A DNA stretch of 64,000 nt from IMG/VR virus record IMGVR_UViG_3300017917_001903, positions 1 through 64,000 of that record; one strand, 5' to 3'. Source of the DNA: a virus. The position numbers and the translations under genes were made by a program. Within the stretch, counting starts at the first letter, position 1; each line of letters opens with the position of its first letter. Below the pieces are notes generated by a model that was given only the letters and a program-made list of their open reading frames with translations, was not told where the DNA came from and searched no databases. Shown here in pieces: positions 4,959-64,000 of this stretch.

Positions 4959-5033
4959 CCGGCCCTGAGAGACTCGAACTCCCGACCTTACGGTTCGTAG
5001 CCGTATGCTCTAATCCAACTGAGCTAAGGGCCG
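4959..5033 (-). tRNA. tRNA-Arg(ACG)
   Basis: Acceptor CGGCCCT/AGGGCCG, anticodon stem TACGG/CCGTA with loop CTACGAA, CCA encoded. The A at position 34 would need the host deaminase TadA to become inosine. Confidence 0.95.
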
Positions 5034-22993: not shown

Positions 22994-23437
22994 TTACTTA
23001 CACCAACTCTGTTTGGCTTCGCCGTAATACTCACGTGCATAGCCCTTGCTGATTAGCAGGCCACGTAGACTTTGTCCATCGATGATTACATCGCCTAGTA
23101 CACGACCACCATACTTGTCCCAATCCATTAGAACAATCTGTAGCTTCTTTGCACCGGCAATTGAATCTTTGGTAAACTTAGTTGCTTCTTGGCCACGTGC
23201 ATCTTCGCTAGGGCACATAGCTCTGTGGCCTTTTTCTGGTGTGTCTACACCAAACACACGAATGCTTAGTTCTTTCTTAAGAGGTTCAGGCAACCATGGC
23301 GCGGCAAACGCAACTGTGTCACCATCAATAACTCTTAGTATTGTAGCATCGTATGTTACACCTGGCTTCTGCTTCTGTGCGAATGCTGGTGTTGCTGACA
23401 CTAGTAGGGCCGCTACTAGCATAATTTGTTTGATCAT
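22994..23437 (-). CDS. Secreted thermonuclease (SNase family)
   Basis: 147 residues with a Sec signal peptide (MIKQIMLVAALLVSATPAFA). The mature part has SNase hallmarks: RVIDGDT (about 35-41), IRVFGVDTPE with the first catalytic Arg, and KYGGRVLGDV with the second. It would degrade nucleic acid in the periplasm or medium, perhaps to exclude rival phage DNA or recycle nucleotides. The start at 23437 has AGGGG seven bases upstream. That site lies in the 3' arm of a 14-bp hairpin whose loop contains a late promoter. Confidence 0.88.
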   Translation of the reverse strand: MIKQIMLVAALLVSATPAFAQKQKPGVTYDATILRVIDGDTVAFAAPWLPEPLKKELSIRVFGVDTPEKGHRAMCPSEDARGQEATKFTKDSIAGAKKLQIVLMDWDKYGGRVLGDVIIDGQSLRGLLISKGYAREYYGEAKQSWCK

Positions 23438-23441
23438 AAAA

Positions 23442-23486
23442 ATACCCCTGTGTGCTTTATTGTTATATTTATGCACACAGGGGTAT
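23442..23486 (-). promoter_or_regulatory. RBS-sequestering hairpin with an internal late promoter
   Basis: A perfect 14-bp stem (ATACCCCTGTGTGC with GCACACAGGGGTAT) encloses CATAAATA (23466-23473). RNA reading through from the SleB-type gene folds and hides AGGGG; RNA begun at the late promoter starts in the loop, lacks the 5' arm, and leaves the site free. The stem is followed by TTTTT, so it may also terminate early transcripts. T4 gene e uses the same logic. Confidence 0.8.
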
Positions 23487-23492
23487 CTAAAG

Positions 23493-24047
23493 TTAACTCA
23501 TCTTATGGAATGAGTGGTTTCCAATTGTAGCAGTTCTAATAAAGTGTCTGCTCCAATCCGGATTTACTATGTTATAATTAAAATAATGTGTTGCACCATG
23601 GGTAGGGTCGCGAGTCCTACCTGATAAAACTTGAAATGCAATACGCATACTTTTAATCCATTCGTCATGGCTTCTGATGCGATCAGAATTACCATCACAG
23701 ATCCAGCTGAATTGACAACTGCCTCCGATACGTTGGTAAACAACGCCACAAACTGATTTTGGAAATCTATGATGTGCTGCCCTGTTTAGTGTAACATGGG
23801 CTACAGCCTTCATTCCGCGCTCAGATTCGCCGCGGGCTTCAAAGTATACATTTTTAGCAAGACACATAAGTTGAGTTTTATCTATCGTGCTTACACTCTC
23901 ATTATTTTTTACCCTATTGGTAATGAGCCCTTGCTCTAACTCAACTCTAGTTTGAGCTATTGCTGGATCAATACCTTTAAGCATTAAAAATGACATCAAC
24001 GCGAATAACGCTACTGCTATTAATGCTTTTGTTCTTGACTTGGGCAT
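23493..24047 (-). CDS. SleB-type cell-wall hydrolase (Hydrolase_2 family)
   Basis: 184 residues. An N-terminal basic/hydrophobic segment (about 8-28) acts as signal or anchor. The catalytic domain begins near NVYFEARGES (about 66-75), whose Glu is the acid of the SleB/CwlJ transglycosylase family, and continues with AVAHVTLNRAAH.RFP and QFSWICDG. It cleaves peptidoglycan glycan strands and is a lysis candidate, alongside GH19 and M15 enzymes at 54775 and 55399. Confidence 0.85.
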   Translation of the reverse strand: MPKSRTKALIAVALFALMSFLMLKGIDPAIAQTRVELEQGLITNRVKNNESVSTIDKTQLMCLAKNVYFEARGESERGMKAVAHVTLNRAAHHRFPKSVCGVVYQRIGGSCQFSWICDGNSDRIRSHDEWIKSMRIAFQVLSGRTRDPTHGATHYFNYNIVNPDWSRHFIRTATIGNHSFHKMS

Positions 24048-24464: not shown

Positions 24465-24493
24465 ATTATACACTGGTTTTTTTAAAAAATCAA
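24465..24493 (-). promoter_or_regulatory. Sigma70-type promoter
   Basis: TTGATT, 17 bp, TATAAT on the minus strand, about 35 bases before the gene at 24430. Confidence 0.7.
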
Positions 24494-55398: not shown

Positions 55399-55899
55399 TT
55401 ATAGCTTTTTCCAAGCATCTGTAGCATCAAAGTCATTGGTTGGTAGATACTTAGTTGATGAACCGTCTTTCTTAGCGATTAGTTTTTGTTTACGGTTTCC
55501 ACCACCCTTCTTAATAGATGCGTGTACCCACCCCGAGTTCTTATCACCCTCTACATAAAATTCTAGGATAACTTGGTCAAACTCTAGGTTTTCAGAAACC
55601 CAGTCTGCAACAACCTTGTTGCTGATGCCTTGGATTTCAAAGTCAACAGCTTCACCGTTAACGTGCTGACTTGTTGTTGAACCACCAACTGCCTTGTTTA
55701 ATGCTGGGCAGCGATAGCTTGAATTGATTGTTATTGGTTTACCAAAATGAGCGCGAGCTGGCTCAAGGATCTTCTCGCAAACATAACGCATGTTTTCGAG
55801 GTGTTCAGGTGTGGGTGTGTTTGCAATACCCTTAGCTTTTGCTGTTGGGCTTGCTGTAAGCTCTTCAACTGTGAAGTGTTCAGTTAATTTTGTAGCCAT
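55399..55899 (-). CDS. Peptidase M15 family (D-Ala-D-Ala/L-Ala-D-Glu-type) endolysin
   Basis: 166 residues. SYRCPALNKAVGGSTTSQHV, NGEAVDFE (about 61-88) and GWVHAS (about 123-128) provide the His-Asp-His zinc set of the M15A family. It cuts peptide cross-links. Late box CATAAATA at 55932-55939 and GGAAGGAA before the ATG. Confidence 0.88.
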   Translation of the reverse strand: MATKLTEHFTVEELTASPTAKAKGIANTPTPEHLENMRYVCEKILEPARAHFGKPITINSSYRCPALNKAVGGSTTSQHVNGEAVDFEIQGISNKVVADWVSENLEFDQVILEFYVEGDKNSGWVHASIKKGGGNRKQKLIAKKDGSSTKYLPTNDFDATDAWKKL

Positions 55900-55931
55900 T
55901 GTGTTTCCTTCCTGCTAGTGTTTATATACAC

Positions 55932-55939
55932 TATTTATG
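55932..55939 (-). promoter_or_regulatory. Late promoter CATAAATA for the lysin operon
   Basis: About 33 bases upstream of the M15 ATG, giving a normal leader. Confidence 0.6.
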
Positions 55940-55957
55940 AAAAGAAACACCAAAAAT

Positions 55958-56760: not shown

Positions 56761-56806
56761 TTTTATTTTCCTTATTAAAAAGCAGAAGTATTAGTTTCTG
56801 CTAATA

Positions 56807-56814
56807 TATTTATA
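56807..56814 (-). promoter_or_regulatory. Late promoter, perfect TATAAATA
   Basis: Serves the small secreted protein at 56760; a short AGCAGAA/TTCTGCT hairpin lies in the leader. Confidence 0.7.
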
Positions 56815-56874
56815 GGGAAATTTTTACAAGTGCGATTTTTTCTGTTGCTAGGAAAAATCGCAAACCCCGGAGAA

Positions 56875-56922
56875 TTACGCTGCTAGAGCGTAATCACCAT
56901 ATGCAAAGTCATTATCGTTTGC
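56875..56922 (-). other. tmRNA tag reading frame
   Basis: GCA start (no initiation codon needed) to TAA, encoding ANDNDFAYGDYALAA. ANDN at the start and ALAA at the end follow bacterial tags; 15 residues is longer than the usual 10-14. Confidence 0.9.
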
Positions 56923-57001
56923 AGTTACTTTTTTTGGCACTTTGCCAGTCAATCAGTCTCGGCATTCCTATTCCGCGTCAATCGATCCTATTTCAGGCCC
57001 A

Positions 57002-57202
57002 TCATAAAAAAACTGCTGCTAGCGCAAGAAAAATAGCAAATGCAAGTAATGCTCTACCCCAATACTCTTGGTCGCTTTCATTGGGAATACTGCGACCATA
57101 ATATTTGTCTACTATCTTGTGCCATTCTGCTAATTCCTTGTCCGAGAGTGTCCCAGGAAAGTGATAGCCTCTCCAATATAAACGATTCTCTTCCTCAGTC
57201 AT
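57002..57202 (-). CDS. Small C-tail-anchored membrane protein inside the tmRNA intervening segment (66 aa)
   Basis: AAGGA seven bases before the ATG begins about five bases after the CCA of the acceptor piece, and the stop (TGA) ends one base before the 5' end of the coding piece. The protein starts MTEEENRLYWRGYHFPG and ends in one hydrophobic helix (ALLAFAIFLALAAVFL). No family recognised. It fills the sequence that is normally a short discarded spacer in permuted tmRNAs, so its mRNA would be freed by tmRNA processing. Confidence 0.65.
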   Translation of the reverse strand: MTEEENRLYWRGYHFPGTLSDKELAEWHKIVDKYYGRSIPNESDQEYWGRALLAFAIFLALAAVFL

Positions 57203-57261
57203 AGCAATTTCCTTATGGTGGACCTGCCCGGTACTGCCCCGGGGTCTTGCCGCTTTTATTG

Positions 57262-57900
57262 TCAGCTGTCAACAACTGATGTATTATTTAGTATTGTAAT
57301 TACGTCCTCAGCAAATTTATAGTGTGCAAGTTTTCCAGGATGCTCATTGTCTAACGCTGGAGAAAAATTAAGTGATATATCATTCATAAACACTTTTTCT
57401 ATTTTAGCTGTAGACCAACTAAATTTAACTATCATTCTCTTAGAAACTAAAAAGTGTAAAACTTTAATACCACGTTTTTTAAAATGTAAATCAGCATACT
57501 CAATTCTAGTATAAAGGTCAACGTTGGCATCATAGTCATCATATAGTGTATAAAAATGTTTAGTCGCTGGATCATCTGAATCAGCAGGAATGAAACGTTT
57601 AAATTTATTGGTAATGTGTGCATCTGCAGATTGTACAATGCAGGATCGTTCAGGGTACGTCCAAAGTATAACCACAATGTCATCATCTTGAAAAGCAAAG
57701 TTTTGTATCTTAAAAAGTATCTCTTTATTACTTGCGCCCGGAAAACTTGTGTTTATACATTCTCTTTTAAGATGCTTTGCAACCATAGCTGGCCAAGCAA
57801 ACGAACTAGGTTTACTAAGAGGCTTTTTTGCAACATGATCCCAACAGTCTGGTAAGCCGTGACCATATGTTAGACTGCATCCAAAGGTAATTAATCTCAT
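57262..57900 (-). CDS. SGNH-like protein (GCSLT type, 212 aa)
   Basis: FGCSLTYGHG (6-15) is the nucleophile block, NTSFPGASNKEI (about 50-61) the second, LWTYPER (about 79-85) the third, and DNEHPGKLAHYKFA (about 184-197) the C-terminal His block. Same type as the gene at 13222. Probably a glycan or lipid esterase. Its stop lies a few bases before the tmRNA acceptor piece, suggesting read-through into the tmRNA. Confidence 0.72.
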   Translation of the reverse strand: MRLITFGCSLTYGHGLPDCWDHVAKKPLSKPSSFAWPAMVAKHLKRECINTSFPGASNKEILFKIQNFAFQDDDIVVILWTYPERSCIVQSADAHITNKFKRFIPADSDDPATKHFYTLYDDYDANVDLYTRIEYADLHFKKRGIKVLHFLVSKRMIVKFSWSTAKIEKVFMNDISLNFSPALDNEHPGKLAHYKFAEDVITILNNTSVVDS

Positions 57901-63235: not shown

Positions 63236-63260
63236 ACCAAAAGTTAAATTTTGATAGAAA

Positions 63261-63290
63261 AACCGCGCTAAATACTAGTGCGGTTTTTTT
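63261..63290 (+). terminator. Intrinsic terminator, late box in its loop
   Basis: AACCGC...GCGGTT with T7. The loop holds GCTAAATA, a weak late box, directly upstream of the next ATG. Confidence 0.8.
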
Positions 63291-64000
63291 ATGATCACAG
63301 TTGATATAACTACAAAGAATACAGTGTTTGATCCATTATCTGGGCAAGGTAGTTGGATTCAACATCGGTTTGGGCAAAGAAATTATCCTTGCTTAGATTT
63401 AAATCTCGATTGTATAACAGAAATTATAAATTCACATGATATAATATTTTTGCGATCTGTATACGGCGATCCGTTATGCCACCCTGAAATCAAAGAAATT
63501 ATTGGCGTCGCCAATAAGATGCGCAAAACTCTAATCATATTCTCTTATCTCAATACCAGCAACAGTGAGGTGCTAGATCAAATCCTACAGTCTGAAACTG
63601 TGTCTGTGTACGTGCCCGTAGATGGATTTGAGAATTATGGGTGTACAATACTAGATTCAAATAAGTCAACAGTGTTTGAAAATCTAATCAAATTAGGATC
63701 AAAAGCTACTGTTGAATTCTTATTATATAGTTACAATATCAATGATTTAAAAGATTTAAGAGAATTTTGTGATACTCACGGTTGTTTATTAAAAACTCAT
63801 CCTGGGAGAAACTTTGGGTTACCTGTTACATCAATTGTTAACAAAGACGGACATTGGTTATATGATGTGTTTCCGTTGACTTCAGAATTGGATGCAATTT
63901 GGGATAATCGTGTTAAAGAAAAAACAGTTGAAGGTTATAGATCACTACTAGACTACGTGGGTAAAATCGAGGGTATTTCAATATTGGATGATCCGGCTAT
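63291..64000 (+). CDS. Hypothetical protein, cut by the window end (236 codons seen)
   Basis: Open from ATG at 63291 to the window edge; reads MITVDITTKNTVFDPLSGQG. Contains HGCLLKTHPGRNFGLPVTSI (about 160-180, in part) and a C-terminal DNRVKEKTVEGY segment. No Cys-rich radical-SAM motif and no known family recognised. The ATG follows the terminator T-run with no ribosome-binding site. Confidence 0.65.
   Translation, partial: MITVDITTKNTVFDPLSGQGSWIQHRFGQRNYPCLDLNLDCITEIINSHDIIFLRSVYGDPLCHPEIKEIIGVANKMRKTLIIFSYLNTSNSEVLDQILQSETVSVYVPVDGFENYGCTILDSNKSTVFENLIKLGSKATVEFLLYSYNINDLKDLREFCDTHGCLLKTHPGRNFGLPVTSIVNKDGHWLYDVFPLTSELDAIWDNRVKEKTVEGYRSLLDYVGKIEGISILDDPA

Follow-up and report, generated by a model that had tools for sequence, protein, structure and literature searches.

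What does a perfect 14-bp hairpin do immediately in front of a nuclease gene in a phage? The structure lies on the minus strand at 23486-23442 of the window, that is, of the whole 64,000-nucleotide stretch analysed here (positions 1 to 64,000 of a virus record of 86,856 bases), and it ends 4 nt 5' of the ATG of an SNase-family nuclease gene. The original prediction was a translational switch of the T4 gene e type, with a possible second role in ending early RNA. The locus contains the following parts.

22994-23437, minus strand: SNase-family nuclease, 147 aa (PF00565; phrog_452; Staphylococcus nuclease structures)
23442-23455, minus strand: hairpin 3' arm GCACACAGGGGTAT, holding the SD AGGGG at 23449-23445 (from the fold and arm complementarity)
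23456-23472, minus strand: loop ATAAATATAACAATAAA (from the fold), with the predicted late start inside, near 23460
23466-23473, minus strand: putative T4-type late promoter box CATAAATA (from the box match and the strand bias of TAAATA upstream of genes in the clade)
23473-23486, minus strand: hairpin 5' arm ATACCCCTGTGTGC, missing from RNA begun at the late box
23493-24047, minus strand: cell-wall hydrolase gene upstream of the nuclease (PF07486; phrog_938 endolysin)

The nuclease matched PF00565 with 45.9 bits against a cut-off of 21, and its DGDTV, R...VDTPE and DKYG.R motifs align with the catalytic residues of Staphylococcus nuclease. Its N-terminus, MIKQIMLVAALLVSATPAFA, is signal-peptide-like: read by eye, it looks like a typical Sec-type signal peptide, and export of the protein is predicted. 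We rejected a GTG start at 23476, within the hairpin, since no SD was seen for it and the ATG at 23437 opens the signal-peptide-like stretch, which is conserved in relatives. The upstream cell-wall hydrolase gene is on the same strand, and its stop codon falls a few nucleotides 5' of the hairpin stem. This hydrolase has a hydrophobic start of its own, ALIAVALFALMSFLMLKGIDPAIAQ, which may be a signal or a signal-arrest-release sequence. The nuclease is followed by a QueD-like gene. Between the two lies a near-consensus sigma-70 promoter (TTGACA-17-TATTAT, 22985-22957, minus strand), which probably gives QueD an early promoter of its own. A search of phage DNA with the region gave no match, and literature searches on exported SNase in cyanophages and on the PeSL cassette turned up nothing that bears on it directly.

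The arms of the hairpin are 14 nt each and 100% complementary, with 17 nt between them. The minus-strand RNA folds at -41.4 kcal/mol, compared with -18.4 for shuffled sequences (z -7.9), and none of the 200 shuffles was as stable. The SD-like AGGGG lies within the 3' arm, with a spacer of 7 nt to the ATG at 23437, and the probability that it is free in read-through RNA is about 0.00. The predicted hiding of AGGGG by a perfect hairpin was thus borne out. So was the predicted placing of the late box between the arms: in CATAAATA, only the C belongs to the 5' arm, which it closes, and ATAAATA falls in the loop, so that RNA begun at this box lacks the 5' arm. By analogy with T4, the late start would be near 23460, the sixth base past the box.

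When the sequence 5' of the box was shuffled, 0.4-4% of cases per leader occluded the SD equally well, which means that the case rests on conservation and not on one sequence. Altogether 80 SNase relatives were examined, and the set from the same neighbourhood, extended via the neighbouring QueD gene, gave nine distinct leaders. Each of these nine syntenic leaders has the hairpin, its two arms flank TAAATA, and the SD is part of the 3' arm. The late box begins 34-35 nt 5' of the ATG in the six loci checked, and in 9/9 leaders the box and the predicted start hold their position, with the start 3' of the 5' arm. The sequences of the arms vary, for example CCTGGGTTG/CAACCCAGG in L001 and TCTCCTGTGTTGA/TCAACACAGGAGA in L054. 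Compensatory changes in related phages, which had been proposed as a check on the original prediction, did turn up. Because MAFFT misaligns the 5' arm of L001, pairs were also counted with the nine leaders anchored on CAGG, and two-sided changes were then seen at 9 of 18 stem positions. An RNAalifold consensus computed without guidance recovered this helix, and 5 of its 12 pairs were compensatory. Across the leaders, read-through RNA left the SD free with a probability of about 0.00 (0.15 in L001), and for late RNA this value was 0.40-0.83. Outside this neighbourhood the arrangement was not seen: SNase genes of other T4-like contigs, in different neighbourhoods, have ordinary leaders without a hairpin switch, and L301, which is more distant, combines a late box and an SD with no hairpin.

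Environmental contigs sharing many genes with the window form a clade (G028, G005, G009, G004, G001, G018, G011, G041 and G008), and two further contigs, G030 and G033, are collinear with the window at a median identity of about 50%. G030 encodes a T4-type terminase, UvsX and gp41 helicase; G031, which is more distant, encodes homologues of gp23, gp20, gp17 and gp18. By this gene content the phage is most likely a distant T4 relative. The window also carries a tmRNA gene (56784-57308, minus strand; tag ANDNDFAYGDYALAA) and 32 predicted tRNA genes.

Over the whole window, YATAAATA is about as frequent as chance predicts (11 versus 10.5 expected), so support for the late box comes from strand and position bias and from conservation. 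In 351 upstream regions of the clade, TAAATA was the most strand-biased of 2791 hexamers, with 103 sense and 37 antisense occurrences, a bias exceeding that of the SD and -35 hexamers. This pattern marks a late-box signal in the clade, and the ATAAATA box may be read by a late sigma. Searches with phrog_234 and phrog_12791 found no gp55-type late sigma on the clade fragments, which are incomplete; a weak match on G028 is broken by a stop and was taken as chance. A like search did turn up gp55 in other T4-like contigs, and none of 80 gp55-bearing contigs, checked through their flanking genes, was tied to the clade. Elsewhere in the window, a plus-strand hairpin at 63254-63292 (ATAGAAAAACCGCG/TGCGGTTTTTTTAT) has CTAAATACTAG as its 11-nt loop, and its T-run leads straight into the ATG of the next gene at 63291 with no SD. 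It resembles a terminator that encloses a late box.

For a switch of the predicted type, early RNA has to reach the hairpin from upstream, and a candidate source was found in the window.

24465-24493, minus strand: sigma-70-like promoter TTGATT-17-TATAAT (10/12 match), from which early read-through RNA may arise

Four of five relatives have TTGACA-17-TATAAT about 1.65 kb 5' of the nuclease (12/12 match, 11/12 in one), and by the same rule L006 has no sigma-70-like promoter upstream. The loci checked for promoters show one late box near the nuclease gene. No canonical terminator was found between the upstream region and the nuclease in six loci (the window and five relatives), by a scan that permits loops of 3-8 and did not call the nuclease hairpin with its 17-nt loop. 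Early read-through RNA would then cross the hairpin.

Can the same arrangement be recovered without knowledge of the nuclease? We scanned genomes by comparing the accessibility of the SD in read-through RNA with that in RNA begun at the box. As a positive control, the top six of the scan in T4 were gene 26, I-TevII, gene 9, I-TevI, gene 49 and gene e; all of these except gene 9 are listed in reviews among the genes regulated through the structure of their leaders (PMC3014915, PMC2988022). In G000, the phage of the window, only two matches exceeded 0.6, the nuclease and an M15 endolysin at 55899.

55399-55899, minus strand: M15-family endolysin under the candidate second switch (PF08291; phrog_894 endolysin)
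55901-55950, minus strand: candidate second switch, with arms 55950-55939 and 55912-55901, the late box CATAAATA at 55939-55932 within the loop, and an SD that falls in the 3' arm

The endolysin switch is present in L108 and absent in the close relatives L083 and L084, which makes it the less conserved of the two switches; its hairpin has no T-run. The endolysin leader of L083/L084 (near 4960-5000) has a late-promoter stretch, ATAAATATAACAATAA, in common with the window's nuclease leader (23456-23472), without a hairpin, and promoter pieces may have been shuffled between genes. Over the clade, strong switches numbered 8 for TAAATA and 0-1 for most permutations of its letters. The exceptions were ATAAAT (7), ATATAA (5) and TATAAA (4), which in our reading come from the same leaders, where they share bases with the late box or border on it. 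Most of the 8 TAAATA cases are homologous nuclease leaders and hence not independent.

Taken together, the compensatory changes, the fixed box position, the hiding and release of the SD and the recovery of the T4 controls uphold the predicted gene e-type reading, and the late-box signal of the clade and the early-type promoter upstream, with no canonical terminator between, lend it further support. We consider it very probable that the element is an early-off, late-on translational switch on the nuclease. Early RNA from the upstream sigma-70-type promoter would cross the cell-wall hydrolase gene and carry both arms; in this long RNA the hairpin would bury the SD, and the nuclease would not be translated. 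At late times, a T4-type late factor would have RNA polymerase start at the loop's ATAAATA box. The short RNA, beginning past the 5' arm, would leave the SD free for the exported nuclease to be made at lysis time. The anatomy, the occlusion and release of the SD in folding, the covariation, the fixed box position and the late-box enrichment are computed directly from the sequences. What is inferred is that a late sigma uses the box, where the late RNA starts, that early RNA reads through, and how strongly translation is repressed; our guess at the purpose of the repression is that the exported nuclease is held back until the cell is near lysis. Several observations count against this reading: the window's promoter matches at only 10/12 positions, L006 has none, and gp55 was not found on the clade's incomplete fragments. 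In addition, ribosomes finishing the upstream gene beside the stem could open the hairpin.

The hairpin might instead serve chiefly as an intrinsic terminator, stopping early RNA once it has passed the cell-wall hydrolase gene, with a late promoter inside and the hiding of the SD as a by-product. The stem contains GC and begins directly past the upstream stop codon, and in most leaders a T-run comes after it. Against this, 17 nt is a long loop for a terminator, and the scan for such elements, with loops of 3-8, makes no call. The TTTTT after the stem is poorly conserved, being lost or broken in L006 (TATTTCC) and L177 (GACTTTC) and separated from the stem by AG in L001, whereas SD occlusion and box position hold in 9/9 leaders; the endolysin hairpin, moreover, lacks the T-run. 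We therefore regard termination as the main function as unlikely. The milder suggestion in the original prediction, that hairpin and TTTTT can also end early RNA, agrees with the T-run in most leaders, and the broken runs and the long loop leave it weakly supported. Termination at the hairpin is possible and less conserved than SD occlusion. A hairpin that both terminates part of the early RNA and silences the read-through is a variant of the switch and not an alternative to it. The two functions are compatible and the spacer is T-rich in 7/9 leaders; such a spacer may only reflect a preference for unstructured spacers, and the long loop speaks against efficient termination, so we hold this variant to be conceivable, at rather less than even chances.

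The inverted repeat could also be read as DNA, namely as an operator for a repressor. I-TevI binds an operator over its own late promoter (PMC2988022), an autorepression that counts for such a reading, as do the perfect inverted repeat adjoining a promoter and the conservation of part of the stem core. Yet the arms change while their pairing is kept, as expected of an RNA structure and not of a sequence recognized by a protein, which makes an operator very improbable. That a chance hairpin happens to stand beside a chance TAAATA is in keeping with the chance frequency of YATAAATA over the whole window, but it is contradicted by conservation (the hairpin is kept in all nine distinct leaders, and its pairs show compensatory changes) and by the z of -7.9, and is hardly credible.

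If the switch reading is right, a mode of control described for only a few T4-type genes also operates, with broad comparative support, in a remote T4 relative known from environmental sequence only. It would also be a clue to the timing of an exported phage nuclease, which the phage probably needs, like the endolysin, only when infection is ending. A more speculative and rather doubtful extension is a small lysis-time regulon in this phage group, in which the exported nuclease and the endolysin are silenced by the same RNA design, the nuclease acts in the lysis phase, for example by cutting DNA released from the host, and the hairpin combines terminator, translational lock and frame for the late promoter.

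The mechanism itself is established in T4 (PMC3014915, PMC2988022). Early read-through RNA of gene e buries the SD in a hairpin, and an internal late promoter yields late RNA without the 5' strand (PMC3014915). The present leader has the same arrangement and was recovered by the same scan, and the endolysin gene of this phage also has a switch; the stem here is longer and more stable (-27 versus -13 kcal/mol in T4 over 78 nt), the arms enclose the box almost entirely, and the gene product is a nuclease predicted to be exported. The nuclease genes I-TevI, I-TevII, I-TevIII and segB of T4 and mobE of Aeh1 also have SD-sequestering hairpins, most of them with an adjoining late promoter (PMC2988022). 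Those are homing endonucleases, whereas the present gene is of the SNase family, with a signal-peptide-like N-terminus and no intron or homing context seen. The late genes 49 (endonuclease VII) and soc of T4 have inhibitory leader hairpins over the translation start (PMC3014915). In our locus, too, a leader hairpin is predicted to inhibit the translation start of a late gene; the difference is that gene 49 encodes an intracellular recombination nuclease and soc a capsid protein, with leader sequences unrelated to those here. This kind of switch is thus already known, including on nuclease genes such as I-TevI and gene 49. We know of no exported nuclease under such a switch; new to us are an SNase, predicted to be exported, under this control, the fact that an endolysin of this one phage is paired with it, and the finding of such a switch in a far relative of T4.
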